Shown: positions 1,264 through 53,926 of the stretch, in pieces | Position numbering within the stretch: the stretch's first letter is position 1 | Layout of the letters: every line of letters starts with the position of its first letter | IMG/VR virus record: IMGVR_UViG_3300005914_000010 | Location: 1 to 54,041 of that record | Reading direction: 5' to 3' (one strand) | Origin: a virus | DNA: 54,041 nucleotides | The notes under the pieces: model-generated | Told to the model about the DNA's origin: nothing | Database searches by the model: none | Seen by the model: only the letters and a program-made list of their open reading frames with translations | Made by a program: the position numbers and the translations under genes

Positions 1264-3393
1264 ATGACTAACTTAACCACAACCACAACATCTCGTGAAT
1301 TAACAACTATGTTCAAGTTTAAAGCAGAACAGGTATTAGATGAGTCTAAGATAATAGTTCAGAACATCGAGCATAAGTCAGCTGGCTTCATTGCTAAGCG
1401 TCTAGTAGCTGTTCTTGAGAAGAAAGGTCACCTAACACAGTTCGACCCAGAGGATATGAGTAATGAATACTTATATAGATGCGACTTTGATGTGAGAACT
1501 ATCGCCATGCTAGGTGTGCAGCTTAGTGGATTAATAGTCCACATAGATAAGCCTATGGATATTGATAAGATAGCAGATGGTACATTCGCTTATAAGATGT
1601 TCAGGAACATAGCGAGAGCTAACCGCACTATAGATGGAGTCTTTGATGAATGTTATGATAACAAGGCACATTGGGTTACTAAGGTTAGAAGAGGCCTGAA
1701 GTTAGCTATTGATGCCAATCTACTAGATGAAGAAGACGGCATGATAGTTAGATCTAAAGCCTACATATCAGGATGCATTAGTAGAAGAAGCATAGTACAT
1801 CAGACTTCACCTATCACTGACGACACTCGTCGTAAGGAACGTGTTAAGAACAAGATGCAGCCTCGTAAAGATGGCACATCTAGTAAGGTAAGAGAAGCTT
1901 TAGCTTTCATAGAAAGCCAAGGACAATCAGTAAACGTTAATCTACTAAATGTAGTGCAACAGTTTATGAAAGATAGTGTTGAATGTAACATACCTTATCC
2001 TGATGTTATACAAGACTCGCTACATGTTATTGAAGGGTGTCAAGAGCTGAGGAATGAGAATGTACTATATTCTGAGTACTTCCAAGACCTTAGAGGTAGA
2101 ATGTATCAGTTCGCACATGGTGGACCTAACCCACAATCTAGTGACTTAGCAAGAGCATTGTGTTACCATGTAGAGTCTAATATAGTACATAAGACTGATA
2201 CAGCATGTTATAGCTTATTCATGAATGAGATGACTAACGAGATAGCGAAGTGTGATTACGCTATGTTACCTCAAGTGATAACTTGGGTAGCTGAGAATCC
2301 ACTAGATGCTATAAAAGAATATTACCGTGTAGGTAGTGACCTTGGTGGAGTTAAGAAGTTCTGGACTTACTTGACACTATGTCAGGACTGGTTGAACTTC
2401 GAGACACAAGGCTTCACTGATTGTAGAATAGGCTTTGGGCCAGATGCTAAATGTTCAGGTGCACAGATACTAGCTATACTCGCTGGTTGTGAGACTATGG
2501 GAAAAGCTTGTGGATTGACTGATCAGGACAGAGGAGATGATCCATATGAGTTATCAACACAAGAAATAGTAAGATTACAACAGAGTTCTACTAGAGCTGA
2601 GTTCCGTGGAGCGTTGTTGCTAATGAGGGAAGAGATTAAGACTTGCTTTATGGCGATACAGTATGGTGGTGGTAGTGGAGTGTTAGCTGGTAGTAACGAG
2701 TTCATAATAGCAATGAACAGAATAGGTATTCCTAACCATATGAGAGATGAGTTCTGTAAGAAGATAGTTAAGAGAGGTATAATCAATGCCCTTGGTCCAA
2801 AGATCAATGCCCTGATAGAAGGTATGCAGGCAGCAGCAAAGCAGATGCAAGAAATGACTGGTAAAGACTACTTTGAGTATAAACATGTTGATGGCAACAC
2901 TTGCACTAAACGTGGTGAAGCTCAAGTTAGAATGACTGATAACCACTTCAAGATTAACTTTGGTGAAAGAGATAACGCTATTATCTTCGGAGCAACAGAA
3001 GAGAGTAGGGCAGGAGATACAGGTTGGAAGGTACAATCGCAGACTATAGATACTCTACAAAGAGCTAACTTTAGTTACTACTTCCCTGTTCACTTCATTC
3101 AAGGCCTTGATAGTGTTATAGCTAGAGAGATAGCTCTACAGGTTAAATCGAGAGGACTGAAAGGGTTTACTACGATTCATGACCAGTTTAGAGTATGCTT
3201 GAGAGATGCTCCTATAATGATGGAAGCGGTAGCAGATGCTTACAGAGTAGTATTCATACAGAATAACCCTATCAAGAAGCTTCAAGAACAAATGAGGGGA
3301 ATAGTGATAGAGACATTAAACCCACTTGAAGATACACTTCAGATAGTAACTGAGGCAGTACTTACTTCAGATAAAGCTTACTACTTCGAGTAG
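1264..3393 (+). CDS. Single-subunit (T7-type) DNA-directed RNA polymerase, 709 aa
   Basis: Transcribes phage genes from phage-specific promoters. Visible motifs match the T7 family in order. There is D-x-R-G-R at residues 275-279. The palm aspartate lies in PDAKCSG (D394, like T7 D537). The finger lysine and tyrosine are K459 and Y467, with the same 8-residue spacing as T7 K631/Y639. The second catalytic aspartate is in I-H-D-Q-F (D640, like T7 D812). At 709 residues it is clearly shorter than T7 polymerase (883), with the loss mainly before the DxRGR motif. The N-terminal promoter-binding and initiation region is therefore reduced or very diverged. It is followed by a hairpin and by a gene-free kilobase with a repeated 18-base motif that may be its promoters. 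Confidence 0.93.
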   Translation: MTNLTTTTTSRELTTMFKFKAEQVLDESKIIVQNIEHKSAGFIAKRLVAVLEKKGHLTQFDPEDMSNEYLYRCDFDVRTIAMLGVQLSGLIVHIDKPMDIDKIADGTFAYKMFRNIARANRTIDGVFDECYDNKAHWVTKVRRGLKLAIDANLLDEEDGMIVRSKAYISGCISRRSIVHQTSPITDDTRRKERVKNKMQPRKDGTSSKVREALAFIESQGQSVNVNLLNVVQQFMKDSVECNIPYPDVIQDSLHVIEGCQELRNENVLYSEYFQDLRGRMYQFAHGGPNPQSSDLARALCYHVESNIVHKTDTACYSLFMNEMTNEIAKCDYAMLPQVITWVAENPLDAIKEYYRVGSDLGGVKKFWTYLTLCQDWLNFETQGFTDCRIGFGPDAKCSGAQILAILAGCETMGKACGLTDQDRGDDPYELSTQEIVRLQQSSTRAEFRGALLLMREEIKTCFMAIQYGGGSGVLAGSNEFIIAMNRIGIPNHMRDEFCKKIVKRGIINALGPKINALIEGMQAAAKQMQEMTGKDYFEYKHVDGNTCTKRGEAQVRMTDNHFKINFGERDNAIIFGATEESRAGDTGWKVQSQTIDTLQRANFSYYFPVHFIQGLDSVIAREIALQVKSRGLKGFTTIHDQFRVCLRDAPIMMEAVADAYRVVFIQNNPIKKLQEQMRGIVIETLNPLEDTLQIVTEAVLTSDKAYYFE

Positions 3394-3442
3394 GCTCTTT
3401 TACAGCATCTTCTAACGAGGGTGCTGAATAAAGAGTAAGCCT
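3392..3442 (+). terminator. Large hairpin after RNA polymerase gene
   Basis: The stop codon of the polymerase runs into a bulged stem. AGG/CCT, then CTCTTT (3395-3400) with AAAGAG (3430-3435), then CAGCATC (3403-3409) with GGTGCTG (3420-3426), closing an apical loop near 3411-3418. There is no uridine tract, so it is more like an RNase III processing site or 3'-end stabiliser than a classic intrinsic terminator. Confidence 0.5.
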
Positions 3443-3862
3443 AATAACTATAACACGCGGGCACACTTATACGGGCTACGCACTAAGAGTCAGACAAGCT
3501 GACCAAAAGGCCGAACCGATTGGTAGACTACCGTCCACCGAAAGGTCTAGGTTTCTCCCATTGTTACTATATGCTGGAATTAGTGATTGGTACTATGTAC
3601 TGGTTTCAATCCATATTGTAATACCCATGTTATGGCCAGCAAGCTGTCCGAAAGGAAATCTAGGGATGTGCTTATTGTAACAGTTCACGTTTAGTGACAT
3701 TACACTCGTAAGTAATCTTCCATCCTGCGAGTAACTTCCCATGGTTAGGTCATACTTAGTTAGTAGGTTAGGCCACTATAGTCACACCCAGAATGAACAT
3801 TGTTTGGCTAAACCTTATAAGTTGGCAATGGAGCCACGGGTATGAATAGTGTCTACTAATTA

Positions 3863-4429
3863 AGTATGTCATGGGGTTACGTAATCATATGTATATTAAC
3901 TTGGCCCTAAGCGTGTATAACTAGGAAGTAGCAGATTCGATTGCTAAACACCTACACATTAGTATGTCATGTGGTTACACCATTATTTATTCATAGCATA
4001 TCATTGAGGACGAACTTGTTCGATCCGATATTAAGAGTAGAAACAAATAAAGTTCTATTCTTTAACCTACACGGTTGGTGACTCTTTGAGTATGTAATGG
4101 TGTAACAATTAACTGGAGAACCAGAATGAAGATAATAAATATTGTGGTGACGAAGATTAGTATGTCATAGGGTTACAGCGTTGAGTCGCAGACTCCCTAT
4201 GTCTTACTTTGGGTTGGCTTGTTAGTCTGAAAGAATAAGTTGGAGCAGAGCGACCCACGTACAAACTGTCAGAGAGCCATACCCACCATGAACTTGTGAT
4301 AGTATGTCCCATGGTAACAATAAAGTATGTAATATTGTCATGACACAGACCGATTAGTAACAACCTATTATATGTACTAGGGTTACGCTTTAAGTATGTC
4401 ATGGGTTATGTACCATAACATGGGGTAAC
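3863..4429 (+). promoter_or_regulatory. Cluster of about nine 18-base repeats, candidate phage promoters or iterons
   Basis: Directly repeated motif with consensus AGTATGTCATGGGGTTAC. Copies, allowing mismatches: 3863-3880, 3961-3978, 4089-4106, 4159-4176, 4301-4318, 4324-4341, about 4369-4386, 4393-4409 and a partial one at about 4414-4429. The last four are spaced 21-48 bases, the earlier ones 70-142. All point the same way as the genes. I did not see this motif in the other gene-poor stretches. The position beside the phage RNA polymerase gene suggests promoters for that enzyme; origin iterons or binding sites for an early regulator are alternatives. Confidence 0.6.
4126..4170 (+). CDS. 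Possible 14-aa leader peptide inside repeat region
   Basis: ATG 4126 follows CTGGAGAACCAGA, a ribosome binding site as good as those of real genes here. The frame stops after 14 codons inside a copy of the repeated motif (4159-4176). The short frame may be chance, but the well-placed Shine-Dalgarno makes a leader peptide conceivable. Confidence 0.2.
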   Translation: MKIINIVVTKISMS

Positions 4430-4494
4430 CTTATATTAGTTCACTTTTAAGTTATATGCTCTTTACATTTACTTAACAACCACAGGTAGAAATC

Positions 4495-24498: not shown

Positions 24499-24963
24499 AT
24501 GTCTGAACAATGGAAGGTAATGAAGAATGGCAGATTTAGTGTATCTTCAAAGGGTAAAGTCTATAACTGGATGAAAGATAGATTTGTGATACAATGGCAA
24601 TCCAACGGATATAACAGAGTATCGCTACAGATAGAAGTTAACAAGAGGAAAAAATATTCTGTTGCTAGACTAGTAGCACTGGCCTTCTTACCTAATCCAT
24701 TGAAACTGAAAACAGTCGATCACATAAACGGAATAAGAAATGATAACCGTATTGAGAATTTACAATGGCTATCCCGTGGTGACAATGTTATAAAAGAGCA
24801 AGCAGGGTATTATTCATTAGTAGATCCTAAAGGTAGAACCATTGAGATATTTAATATGGAGGAGTTCTGTAGAAATAATAATCTTGATTCTGCTAATATA
24901 CATAGAGTGATGAAGAGCAGGCAAACTCATCATAGAGGGTGGACTAAATGTCAGAATATATAG
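24499..24963 (+). CDS. Free-standing NUMOD4-HNH homing endonuclease, 154 aa
   Basis: The N-terminal NUMOD4-like segment (residues 1-35) is followed by HNH residues around KTVDHINGIRNDNRIENLQWLSRGDNV and a C-terminal NUMOD-type helix-turn-helix (IFNMEEFCRNNNLDSANIHRVMKS). These modules define phage homing endonucleases. It lies between the ribonucleotide reductase and terminase genes and overlaps the terminase start by 16 bases. The gene next to it carries an intron, so it could also act on the intron-free terminase site. Ribosome binding site AGGAG. Confidence 0.85.
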   Translation: MSEQWKVMKNGRFSVSSKGKVYNWMKDRFVIQWQSNGYNRVSLQIEVNKRKKYSVARLVALAFLPNPLKLKTVDHINGIRNDNRIENLQWLSRGDNVIKEQAGYYSLVDPKGRTIEIFNMEEFCRNNNLDSANIHRVMKSRQTHHRGWTKCQNI

Positions 24964-25838
24964 ACGAACAGTATGACAAGTTCTTAACAAACTGTATGAT
25001 ACAGAATTACGGGGACTTGTTGAAGGTAAGCAGATCTAGAGGCATAAATAGGACTCTCCCATTATTGAGAAATTACTTAATTGGGAATAATAAAGTAAGG
25101 GAAGAATACCTTTTCGCAATAAGAAGCGAGATGGAAGGTCAGAATATACTTGACCACAAGGTCTTGAATTCAATCATTGATGCACAGTTGAAATCTTTCA
25201 CCGAGGGTGAGAAGAAGAATAACAAGATGTACTCCGATGAGATAAAGAAAATCATAACTGAAGGTGACGCTGAAAAGAATGCAGATGGTACCGTAAGGGT
25301 AGCCAACTCAGACAAGAAAGCTCCATCATTAGTAGATAAAATTATCAAAGACCCTCTACTCGTGGATTATACTAAAGTAACAACCGAAGATGCTAACGCT
25401 GTTCGGGATATACTTATGAATGATAAAGACGGTTTTGAACAGTTTAGTAAATGGTGCTTCCAGATTCAAATGAATTTTAAATTCCAGCATCAAGACTTTC
25501 ATTCAGTCATATTCGAGTTCTGTCAGAAAATAGTGCATGGAGAAATAGACAGAGGTATTGTAACGATACCACCGCGACACTCAAAGACGCAAATACTATC
25601 TATATTCTTACCATTGTATTCGTTCTGTTATAATCCAACAAGTCATAATATTATCACATCCTATGCTGATGATGTTGTTCAAGAATCTAGTGGCTATATC
25701 AGGCAAGTGATGACTGATAACTTATTTCAGAAGATATTTCCAACTGTGAGAATTGATCCAAATAAGCGTTCACTAGAACGTTGGGGAACAACCAAAGCGG
25801 GTGTAATGCATGCAGTGCCAACTGGCGGTAAAATGACT
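24948..25838 (+). CDS. terL: Terminase large subunit, exon 1 (residues 1-297)
   Basis: The ATPase motor that packages DNA. Exon 1 includes a long N-terminal extension (about residues 1-170) that may stand in for a separate small subunit. Then come the ATPase Walker A-like loop IPPRHSKTQ (about residues 205-213) and an intervening core ending in AVPTGGKMT. The last codon before the intron (ACT, 25836-25838) is exactly at a codon boundary. Read-through would add only seven residues before a stop, so splicing with exon 2 (from 26742) is needed for a working enzyme. Confidence 0.88.
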
Positions 25839-26741
25839 CAACCTTCGGGTCATTTAAAACTTACTTAATTCGGTGAATCTCTCAACACGTAGTGGTGGAG
25901 ACAATACCGAGCTAGGATTCTTTATACGATTATCGAAACCGAGTGTAACGACTATCCCGCAAGGGAGTAAGGCTCAAGTGAGCTTGAAACAGTAAGATTA
26001 GTATGAATCTAATAAGATATAGTCTAATCTTCATAGAAATATGGAGGCTTTATGCTTAAATACAATATAATAAATACGGGTGACATCTTGGAGAATAATC
26101 AAGGTGTAGAGTTGATAGTGTTAGAAATAAAAAGAGCACCAAAAAGGTGTGTAATAGAATTTACTAAAACTAAGACTAAAAAAGAAGTGGCCTTTCAACA
26201 CTTGAGATATGGGAAAGCTAAAGACCCCTATCATAAAGTACGATACGGAGTAGCGTGTTTAGGTAACCCACCGAAATACGCTGTAGAAGATTATAGGCGC
26301 TGGGATAATATGATTGAAAGATGTTATAACGAGCGTGGGCAATACACGAGTTACGAAGGAGCGACTGTCTGTGAGAGATGGTTGTGCTTCGAATACTTCC
26401 TTGAAGATTTGAAAAATATGAATGGTTATGGATTACCCAATAGACATTTAGATAAAGACCTCAAATCTCACAAGAAAATATATAGCTTGGAGAACTGTCA
26501 ATTAATAAATAATCAAGAAAACTCAAGTCATGGAAAGTTCCAAGAACAGCATCAATGGGTAGCAACCAGTGGAGGAGGTACAGTTATAAAAGCTGCAACA
26601 TCCTCAGAGTTAGGAAGATTACTACAATGTGCTGCAAGTACCATTAGGCAGAAAATGACTGATGGCTACTTAGTAAAAGGTTCTTGGAAAATAACACAAG
26701 CATAAACAGTCAAGAGTCACGAACTTGATTTAATATAAATG
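25839..26741 (+). mobile_element. Group I intron interrupting the terminase gene, 903 bases
   Basis: P1 is visible: exon AAATGAC (25831-25837) pairs with GTCATTT (25849-25855), and the exon's last T (25838) pairs with G25848, the conserved U-G at the 5' splice site. P4 pairs TCGGT (25870-25874) with ACCGA (25906-25910). P7 pairs GACTAT (25950-25955) with ATAGTC (26019-26024), in a conserved AAGATATAGTC context. The intron ends in G26741. Joining 25838 to 26742 restores the terminase consensus (GGKMT-GKGAGLL) in frame. It carries an endonuclease gene at 26052-26705, so it is a mobile intron. Confidence 0.9.
26052..26705 (+). CDS. Intron-encoded homing endonuclease, 217 aa
   Basis: Lies inside the terminase group I intron. 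The central block YRRWDNMIERCYNE, then ATVCERWLCFEYFLEDL, then HLDKDLKSHKKIYSLENCQLINNQEN is the HNH-related pattern of phage intron endonucleases (LDKDL for the H/N core). A C-terminal helix-turn-helix (LGRLLQCAASTIRQKMTDGYLVKG) would bind the target. It cuts intronless terminase genes so that the intron copies itself. Ribosome binding site ATGGAGG. Confidence 0.8.
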   Translation: MLKYNIINTGDILENNQGVELIVLEIKRAPKRCVIEFTKTKTKKEVAFQHLRYGKAKDPYHKVRYGVACLGNPPKYAVEDYRRWDNMIERCYNERGQYTSYEGATVCERWLCFEYFLEDLKNMNGYGLPNRHLDKDLKSHKKIYSLENCQLINNQENSSHGKFQEQHQWVATSGGGTVIKAATSSELGRLLQCAASTIRQKMTDGYLVKGSWKITQA

Positions 26742-27863
26742 GGAAAAGGGGCAGGGTTACTATCTACTGAATACGCAGGTGTATTTGTAGTAGACGATGC
26801 AATAAAACCCAAAGACGCGTATTCTAATACGATACGAGCAGAAATAAATGACCGTTTCGATAACACTTTTCAATCGCGTTTAGCGAACGATGGAGTTGTA
26901 CAAGATGACAACGGTAATTTGATAGAATGTCCTAGAACACCTATGGTTATAATAATGCAGAGAGTGCATGATGAAGATCTAGTTGGACATATACTAAGAG
27001 GTGGCAGTTCAGATGAATACGTTTGGCTTAATATACCAGGAGTAGTCACGCCAGATTGTGGTACCAAGAAATGGTACGATACTCTTATTAAAGGTCAGGC
27101 CTACACTCATGCAATACCTTATTTGTATGACTTAAAACGTGAAGAACCACTGTCTGCCTTATGGCCAAGCCGTAAAAGCTTGCAATCTCTTTTAAGAATG
27201 AAAGAGTCCAATCCATACACTTTTAATTCACAGTATCTCGGAGATCCAACCGCTAAAGGTACAGGTCTCGTGGACGGTGATTGGTGGGTTGAATACGAAG
27301 AATTAGATAAAGCGAATATAAAGCGTACTTTCATGACGGCTGATACAGCGTCAACGAAGCAAGATTATTCCGATTACTCCATAGTTTGCCTATGGGGAAT
27401 TACTAGGGATAATAAGCTTATCTTAATAGATATTATAATAGGGAAGTGGGAGACACCAGAATTGAAAATAGAATTGATTAAATTCTGGAAGAAACACACG
27501 GATAATTTTGATGTCAATTTCCCCTTGTTATTGCCTACGGCATTATACATGGAGGATAAATCAAGTGGACAGTTCTTAAACCAACAGTTTGCTAGAGATG
27601 GCGCGATCAGAGTTCTACCAATTCCCAAAGATAAGAGCTCAGGGGATAAAGTCGCTAGATTCCTTAATACTGTACCTTATTGGGCACAGGAAAGAATATT
27701 AATGCCAGCAGAACATAAGCATAAAGCCCACATAATGCGGGAAACATTGAATATGACAGGCCTCGGCAGCGGTACAGGACACGATGATTTCATCGACAAT
27801 GTATCGGACGCTGTAGTAGTTGCATTTAGTGCTCCCTCAGCAAATTATGATTTATGGGCATAG
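26742..27863 (+). CDS. terL: Terminase large subunit, exon 2 (residues 298-670)
   Basis: Continues the motor after splicing. It starts GKGAGLLSTEYAG, then Walker B VFVVDDAI with its acidic pair, and a C-terminal RNase H-like nuclease domain with the aspartate in FMTADTAST, a second acidic residue in ALYMEDKSSGQ and a third in GHDDFIDNVSDA. All expected catalytic acids are visible, so the spliced protein of about 670 residues looks functional. ATG at 26739 straddles the splice site and would not give a complete enzyme on its own. Confidence 0.88.
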   Translation, partial: GKGAGLLSTEYAGVFVVDDAIKPKDAYSNTIRAEINDRFDNTFQSRLANDGVVQDDNGNLIECPRTPMVIIMQRVHDEDLVGHILRGGSSDEYVWLNIPGVVTPDCGTKKWYDTLIKGQAYTHAIPYLYDLKREEPLSALWPSRKSLQSLLRMKESNPYTFNSQYLGDPTAKGTGLVDGDWWVEYEELDKANIKRTFMTADTASTKQDYSDYSIVCLWGITRDNKLILIDIIIGKWETPELKIELIKFWKKHTDNFDVNFPLLLPTALYMEDKSSGQFLNQQFARDGAIRVLPIPKDKSSGDKVARFLNTVPYWAQERILMPAEHKHKAHIMRETLNMTGLGSGTGHDDFIDNVSDAVVVAFSAPSANYDLWA

Positions 27864-48615: not shown

Positions 48616-48963
48616 ATGAATTTATCAAAATGGAAAGACGACTTTTGTCTTAGAGTAAGATTAAATAAGATTTACATATGCCCTGCTGCTATTAGATTTA
48701 TTAACAACCCCATGTCTGCTGGAAGTAAAAAGAAATATGTTAGAGGTGTATGCTCCTTTCTAAGGGCACAAGGTCTACCAAAAGAGCTTGAGAAATTTGA
48801 GCATTTGTTTGTAGAAAAGATGACTGAAGTAGTTGTAGAAGTAACTCCTGAAGTAACTCCTGAAGTAACTCCTGAAGTAACTCCTGAAGTAATTCCTGAA
48901 GTAACTCCTGAAGTAACTCCTGAAGTAACTGAAGAAAAGACTACCGAAGACGAAGAAGATTAA
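48616..48963 (+). CDS. Hypothetical protein with EVTP repeats, 115 aa
   Basis: An N-terminal globular segment (about residues 1-72), then EVTPEVTP... tandem repeats and an acidic end (TTEDEED). The repeat part is encoded by seven 12-base units. Such Pro/Glu/Thr repeats form rigid, extended spacers, as in TonB-like proteins. Function unknown; it sits in the lysis region. Confidence 0.7.
   Translation: MNLSKWKDDFCLRVRLNKIYICPAAIRFINNPMSAGSKKKYVRGVCSFLRAQGLPKELEKFEHLFVEKMTEVVVEVTPEVTPEVTPEVTPEVIPEVTPEVTPEVTEEKTTEDEED
48838..48921 (+). repeat. Seven 12-base tandem repeats (GAAGTAACTCCT)
   Basis: Units at 48838, 48850, 48862, 48874, 48886 (one C-to-T change, giving EVIP), 48898 and 48910, with a partial eighth. 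In frame, so copy number varies the protein length in steps of four residues. Confidence 0.95.
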
Positions 48964-53668: not shown

Positions 53669-53926
53669 CAGAGTACACCACTCTCCCACTTTTTGAGGTC
53701 GCGCATACAATGGCTTGGCTTTCATATAGTGACAGAGAGTGGGCCGCTGTAGCCCATACAAGGCAAGGGCTGCGAGACGCCCAGAGCTGACCTCTATGGG
53801 CCACTTTTTAATGCATTACGATGGTCTAAAATGTGTTAAAAAGTGTGTCATTTGGACACTGATGTTGCAGTATCACATCAAAAATAACAGAAACTGAAAT
53901 AAATACTTCAAAACTTAGGAAATTCG
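53669..53926 (+). other. 258-base structured non-coding region with terminator-like end
   Basis: Several helices are possible: CCACTCTC (53678-53685) with GAGAGTGG (53735-53742), GAGGTC (53695-53700) with GACCTC (53789-53794), GCCCAT (53752-53757) with ATGGGC (53796-53801), and an inner GGGC/GCCC (53767-53782). The first two and the second and third cross each other, so they cannot all form together as a simple fold. A CACTTTTTA tract follows the third helix at 53802-53810, terminator-like. Confidence 0.6.

Follow-up and report, generated by a model that had tools for sequence, protein, structure and literature searches.

Behind the single-subunit RNA polymerase gene of the phage studied here lies a family of short, same-direction repeats, and arrays of the same class stand in the corresponding place in Chaseviridae. 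Across the family, the hexamer cores of these arrays are quantised at about 11.6 bp from core to core, which is new in this analysis. The array is probably a phased protein-binding array and not a set of independent promoters, because independent promoters need no ~11.6-bp phase. Among the functions that such an array could serve, we tentatively favour a replication origin.

The polymerase gene and the affiliation of the phage

The window, that is, the whole stretch of DNA analysed, is a single metagenomic virus record of 54,041 b. Its polymerase gene is as follows.

1264–3393, + strand: T7-fold single-subunit RNA polymerase gene, 709 aa (phrog_414, Pfam RNA_pol, AlphaFold2/Foldseek)

The predicted structure of the polymerase is of T7 type. 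Specifically, the protein matches the profiles phrog_414 (E 7.6e-68) and Pfam RNA_pol (1.1e-6), and its AlphaFold2 model (pLDDT 84) has T7 RNAP as its best Foldseek matches (E 1.5e-18); by sequence, the match to T7 RNAP is weak (E 0.0024). The nearest polymerase overall is that of the metagenomic relative L047 (52–54% identity). Identity to the 28 best named relatives is 43.7–46.7%, and the nearest named polymerases (about 44–47%) are those of Nefertitivirinae and related Aeromonas phages, which places the phage, by polymerase sequence, among the relatives of Chaseviridae. As in that family, a genome of 52–56 kb (54,041 b in the window) carries single-subunit RNA polymerase, portal, terminase and replication genes. 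Chaseviridae have a myovirus particle and terminal repeats of ~3 kb. The ICTV profile of the family states that the promoters of the polymerase have not been identified (PMC12842549). SppYZU05 (L010) was excluded from the polymerase alignments because of a stop in its frame. A code in which one residue of a polymerase loop would account for the difference between Shewanella and Aeromonas phages, considered on the alignment, is not claimed because a single lineage change underlies it.

The large terminase gene of the window is interrupted (24948–27863). Its N part (24948–25868) and C part (26739–27863) both match terminase families, an HNH endonuclease gene (26052–26705) lies between them, and another HNH gene (24499–24963) lies just ahead. 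The interruption looks like an intron-type insertion; a search of it with Rfam gave no intron match.

Repeat copies in the window

The motif family predicted from the letters of the window is real and is not due to chance. As predicted, its copies run in one direction in a gene-free gap behind the polymerase gene, with seven cores on the + strand and none on the − strand. The gap and its sites are as follows.

3394–4494, + strand: non-coding gap from the polymerase gene to the first downstream gene, seat of the array (ORF list; similar gap in relatives)
3863–3880, + strand: array copy 1, AGTATGTCATGGGGTTAC (mismatch search, matrix)
3961–3978, + strand: array copy 2, AGTATGTCATGTGGTTAC (mismatch search, matrix)
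4089–4106, + strand: array copy 3, AGTATGTAATGGTGTAAC (mismatch search, matrix)
4159–4176, + strand: array copy 4, AGTATGTCATAGGGTTAC (mismatch search, matrix)
4301–4318, + strand: array copy 5, AGTATGTCCCATGGTAAC (matrix; top site for the L047 matrix)
4324–4341, + strand: array copy 6, AGTATGTAATATTGTCAT (matrix; 23 bp from copy 5)
4369–4386, + strand: array copy 7, TATATGTACTAGGGTTAC, with the degenerate core ATATGT (45 bp from copy 6, 24 bp to copy 8)
4393–4410, + strand: array copy 8, AGTATGTCATGGGTTATG (matrix)
4412–4429, + strand: weak half-site, ACCATAACATGGGGTAAC (matrix score 10.7; membership uncertain)

A search with AGTATGTCATGGGGTTAC at up to three mismatches finds four matches in 54,041 b, all on the + strand (3863, 3961, 4089 and 4159), where 0.02 are expected in shuffles and none of 100 shuffles holds four. 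The core AGTATGT occurs seven times on the + strand of the gap and never on its − strand, and four times on each strand in the remainder of the window. A matrix made from the window copies gives eight sites in the gap with scores of 14.3–26.3 (3863, 3961, 4089, 4159, 4301, 4324, 4369 and 4393) and a single site outside it (53842, score 14.1). The absence of the motif from the rest of the window therefore holds in this position-matrix scan save for that one site, while the count of about nine copies has to be lowered to seven clear copies and a degenerate one, plus the weak half-site of uncertain membership.

As a check on circularity, a second matrix was made from the five copies of L047 only. 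Its five best + strand matches in the window are 4301, 3961, 3863, 4159 and 4089, and nothing else on either strand attains 13.4, the lowest score of those five. With this matrix, copies 4393 (11.5) and 4324 (8.8) cannot be told from chance sites by score.

Two further sites in the window resemble the motif. The isolated site AGTGTGTCATTTGGACAC at 53842–53859 scores like the weakest array copy and could lie within the terminal repeat, if the genome runs on into position 1. A 12-bp tandem repeat, GAAGTAACTCCT, present in 7.8 copies inside a coding region (48838–48930), weakly resembles the array matrix (scores 7–10).

Arrays in related phages

In named phages of both subfamilies and in metagenomic contigs, largely non-coding DNA of ~0.9–1.8 kb follows the polymerase gene, with a small gene or two inside it in some relatives. 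In all 10 whole genomes examined, a hexamer of the form GNRTG[AT] is highly over-represented in this gap, on the + strand only. The counts (+:−) are 7:0 for GTATGT in the window; 7:0 for GTATGA in each of VPs20, pAh6-C and ZPAH14 and 6:0 in BUCT696; 8:0 and 9:0 for GTGTGA in the Shewanella phages Spp001 and MSO-5; and 14:0, 14:1 and 9:0 for GCATGT in Myduc, MLP1 and PP101. AT-rich repeats outscore the array hexamer in the gaps of VPs20 and pAh6-C. Cores are present at 5:0 in L047, at 7–8:0 in five Aeromonas/Vibrio-type gaps, and at 6–14 on the + strand versus 0–1 on the − strand in twelve Cleopatravirinae gaps.

Among distant contigs, L070–L072 (29% identity) have TTGAAT and GAATCA as top hexamers, with GAATC at 10–15 : 1–2, and L074 (31%) has TTGTAT and GTATCT (6:1). 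No convincing array of this class was found behind the polymerases of L075 and L076 (25–30% polymerase identity), and in L052 and L069 the DNA behind the polymerase is too short for a judgement. L076, a 30% polymerase relative, sits on a contig assigned to an Ekhidna MAG, possibly a phage contig binned with the Ekhidna genome.

The spelling of the hexamer differs by lineage (GTATGT, GTATGA, GTGTGA, GCATGT, GAATCA and GTATCT), and the class GNRTSW, drawn up after these spellings had been seen, fits them all. Co-variation with the polymerase in related phages, which the original prediction had set as its own test, is borne out, in that the array spelling changes with the polymerase lineage.

Outside the gap, the core hexamer is nearly absent from non-coding DNA in the 10 genomes. 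Exceptions are found in the ZPAH14 and BUCT696 records, at one end of which part of the gap recurs; at a single similar site in each of pAh6-C (4543) and ZPAH14 (37295); and in Spp001, MSO-5 and Myduc, with one or two sites. Outside copies are strand-biased in pAh6-C (12:3), ZPAH14 (18:5) and BUCT696 (17:4) and lie mostly inside reading frames. With rare exceptions, array copies precede no other genes in the genomes scanned.

The first ~500 nt of the Nefertitivirinae gaps (L005–L011) contain many short hairpins like GGCTCTTCGAGCC, with shared stretches ahead of the array. This start of the gap is possibly a structured RNA; Rfam gave no match to the hairpin region in the loci searched.

Phasing, partner half-site and conservation of the cores

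The 87 core-core distances of 8–65 bp in 17 gaps fit a period of 11.6 bp best (R 0.61, a value that none of 3000 random sets reached), where the hexamers were picked from the same gaps by abundance and not by spacing, and the spacing had been noticed by eye before the test. This count leaves out GJ1, MLP1, MSO-5, L048, L053, L064, L068 and L072, which are near-duplicates or short pieces. With distances counted once per clade, R is 0.56 (n=66, again 0 of 3000 random sets). The distances cluster at 10–14, 21–26, 34–38, about 47 and 55–60 bp, and the fraction at 15–20 or 27–33 bp is 0.00 versus 0.20. Among other repeated hexamers of these gaps, 1 of 1962 sets attains this R. Taken clade by clade, Cleopatravirinae peak at 11.6 bp (R 0.70), Nefertitivirinae at 12.0 bp (0.58) and the distant set at 11.2 bp (0.85). 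In the window itself, phasing is seen only in the last four cores (4302, 4325, 4370 and 4394; 23, 45 and 24 bp apart), and the first four stand at intervals of 98, 128 and 70 bp.

Many cores are followed by a partner half-site, GT[ATG]AC. It is found at +12 in 6 of the 12 cores of the window and L047, where 0.15 would be expected at any one offset, and at +12 or +13 in 33 of the 93 cores of Cleopatravirinae, where the expectation for one offset is 0.68. The partner is less clear in Nefertitivirinae and absent at +12 in the distant clades.

In two of five groups, the core columns exceed the rest of the gap in conservation at the 1/1000 level; the values are 0.88 vs 0.64 in Escherichia and 1.00 vs 0.74 in Vibrio-type gaps. 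Conservation is weak or suggestive in the Shewanella and Erwinia groups, where 65 and 61 of 1000 random sets are equally good, and the core columns of pAh6-C/BUCT696 have no excess conservation (441 of 1000).

A separate dispersed motif in Cleopatravirinae

Cleopatravirinae carry a second motif, RCATTAGTTGRAWGTGAA, dispersed on the + strand ahead of genes that include the RNA polymerase gene (L013, L014, L012 and others). In PP101, copies precede the polymerase gene (by 41 bp), the single-strand-binding-protein gene (81 bp), orf26 (25 bp), orf31 (75 bp) and the baseplate hub gene (39 bp); one further copy is in the gap, and others are in long intergenic or coding DNA. The matrix for this motif was trained on matches in PP101, MLP1 and Myduc, so the counts in these three genomes (13–15 on the + strand vs 0–1 on the − strand) are not independent. 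Five loci outside the training set, which are still relatives, have 15 on the + strand vs 1 on the − strand (GJ1 4/0, Y2 2/0, 4HA13 2/0, L064 3/1 and L068 4/0).

The putative phage promoters 1 and 2 deposited for phiEcoM-GJ1 (EF460875) are this motif; both contain TTAGTTGSATGTGAA and lie in the same gap behind the polymerase gene. Eight "consensus promotor sequences" are reported for PP101 (PMC6989608). These promoters come from the same phage family as the array, and the GJ1 pair even from the same gap, but that pair belongs to the RCATTAGTTGRAWGTGAA motif, dispersed genome-wide before genes in Cleopatravirinae, whereas the array there consists of phased GCATGT. Judged by its placement, the dispersed motif is a better promoter candidate for Cleopatravirinae than the array, and if it is a promoter, the neighbouring array needs another explanation.

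The dispersed motif was not found in the non-coding DNA of the window, L047 or Nefertitivirinae, and the array is therefore the only promoter candidate found in the window and Nefertitivirinae. No replacement motif is shared by the regions upstream of their polymerase genes. De novo motif and k-mer searches of other intergenic DNA, with sets that included stray unannotated coding DNA, turned up nothing convincing except in Cleopatravirinae, and a sigma-70 scan gave fewer matches than in shuffles. An element, GGATGTTG / GGATGTTGRRGA, upstream of the polymerase operon is common to the window (590) and L047 (2470) only.

Alternative functions of the array

Each copy could be a T7-type promoter, with a specificity hexamer, a few melted bases and a start at G, so that the array would be one strong rightward entry for the whole genome. 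A cognate single-subunit polymerase of predicted T7 fold is present, the copies point along the gene direction directly behind its gene in 10 of 10 whole genomes, the spelling shifts with the polymerase lineage, and in the window, dispersed copies and the Cleopatravirinae motif are both lacking, which leaves it with no other known promoter candidate. A T7-type promoter is roughly 23 bp long, but core spacings go down to 10–14 bp; T7-type sets consist of independent sites in no fixed phase, dispersed before genes, but the cores are phased at ~11.6 bp and copies ahead of later genes are almost lacking. The motif is unlike T7 promoters, as had been predicted, and Cleopatravirinae have their separate motif 25–81 bp ahead of genes. 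Promoter function was dropped as our first choice after the dispersed motif and the phasing had been found, and it now seems rather unlikely. A role in packaging is unlikely too. Here, terminase (the small subunit or an equivalent) would bind repeats on either side of the cut by which the long direct terminal repeat receives its right end. In all five Cleopatravirinae with computed or annotated ends, this right end precedes the main cluster, whose first core follows at 67–102 bp (PM1, 2665 to 2755; Y2, 2608 to 2675; and, with ends from PhageTerm notes, Myduc, 3202 to 3304; 4HA13, 3120 to 3195; and Mangalitsa, 3234 to 3318), in ZPAH14 it lies 45 bp ahead of a core (3373 to 3418), and cores are present on both sides of the cut. 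This nearness fits packaging at least as well as replication. However, because the ends are homologous, they make perhaps two independent cases, and at about ten cores per kb some core is likely to be close to a repeat end. The array moreover extends over 0.5–1.2 kb, and no small terminase gene was recognised. Among known packaging sites, SPP1 pac has three sets of direct repeats, but the DNA-binding domain of SF6 is reported to have little preference for pac repeats (PMC4737164). On the hexamers of P1 pac, the literature yielded no usable information. For PYps23T, a phage of this group, a sequenced repeat of 2,339 bp is reported (PMC8762354).

The array could also be bound by another phage regulator or a centromere-like complex, with no role in replication start or packaging. 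The parC/ParR and tubC/TubR centromeres look alike, in that a helical assembly of protein binds their blocks of direct repeats (PMC5016525). They serve plasmid partition, however, and no partition gene was seen among the 20 window proteins searched, nor do virulent phages have an obvious need for partition, which makes this function improbable. We consider it very improbable that the array acts at the RNA level, with the transcribed gap forming a structured RNA or repeated protein-binding motifs. Two segments of the window fold better than shuffles (3855–4440, z −2.69; 3394–3860, z −2.05), and the consensus fold of 14 Cleopatravirinae array parts (−40 kcal/mol), some of them from loci taken for ST32, flopper and SSEM1 that were used for this fold only, beats column-shuffled controls (−3.5) but falls far short of the mean for single sequences (−269); the gap matches no Rfam family, and such folding lends weak support.

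A possible replication origin

Of the three functions originally put forward, namely promoter, origin iterons and regulator site, origin iterons fit best, while the promoter has lost ground with the ~11.6-bp phasing, the scarcity of copies elsewhere and the dispersed motif. We rank the origin first because direct repeats in ~12-bp steps with AT-rich DNA at the genome end recall iteron origins and phi29 p6; a promoter cluster comes second and a packaging site third. Taken as an iteron-like protein-binding array, the locus would most readily serve as a replication origin, which we hold with less than even confidence.

Like iteron origins, the locus has several direct repeats in one orientation with helical phasing (in the window, in the last four cores only). 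The AT-richness of the gap varies. In 5 of 10 genomes (VPs20, pAh6-C, Spp001, MSO-5 and PP101), its lowest-GC 40-mer is among the 1–3 lowest places genome-wide, and in VPs20 it is the most AT-rich 40-mer of the genome (1/40 GC). The signal is moderate in ZPAH14 (4 places as low), weak in MLP1 (7) and BUCT696 (7), and not exceptional in Myduc (21) and the window (41). GC skew is uninformative as to an origin.

In the proposed mechanism, the repeats would form an iteron-like cis array of same-direction hexamer half-sites (GTATGT in the window, often with GTNAC 12 bp on), set across the family at multiples of ~11.6 bp. A phage-encoded DNA-binding protein may bind these half-sites cooperatively, side by side, and the bound protein would wrap or unwind the array DNA. 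The complex could then open neighbouring AT-rich DNA and start genome replication at the left end, adjoining the boundary of the long terminal repeat. If the array is such an origin or binding array, the change of hexamer between lineages would reflect co-evolution with the binding protein and not with the RNA polymerase.

Several known systems resemble the array in part. The primary origin of T7 consists of two ordinary promoters, phi1.1A/B, and an AT-rich stretch behind gene 1, at the left of the genome. In common with the array, it directly follows the RNA polymerase gene in the left part of the genome, but it has no phased repeat array. Plasmid iteron origins (RepE, TrfA and pi) have direct repeats in one direction, about two helical turns apart, often beside AT-rich DNA. 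Their iterons are long, near-identical and at a fixed 21–23 bp, whereas the array has hexamer cores at multiples of 11.6 bp, and no Rep gene was recognised near it. In spacing, the array resembles the complex of phi29 p6, a protein that touches DNA with one monomer per 12 bp (per 11 bp in GA-1), favours the ends of the genome and assists the start of replication, as reported in PMC10899789. However, p6 is guided by the bendability of DNA, and replication of phi29 is primed by a protein, whereas the array has clear sequence repeats.

Within the literature covered by our search, including the 4HA13, ST32, Tiny and PYps23T papers, the array and its phasing are undescribed; the founding paper of phiEcoM-GJ1, outside that search, may mention repeats. 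No description of a Chaseviridae replication origin was met in the literature examined.

More broadly, and more doubtfully, Chaseviridae and more distant phages may carry a new origin/terminus locus, in which a GNRTSW hexamer in one-way steps of ~11.6 bp would seat a filament of a phage protein. The filament would keep DNA at the boundary of the terminal repeat underwound and initiate replication, and the hexamer and its protein would drift together. Two things that are easily merged are now separated, namely a dispersed, promoter-like motif in Cleopatravirinae and a phased array unlike a promoter. In culturable relatives, footprinting, 5'-end mapping and origin tests can be aimed at the array, a target that is short and precise, and the differences in spelling between lineages are natural swap experiments with which the protein that reads the array may be found.
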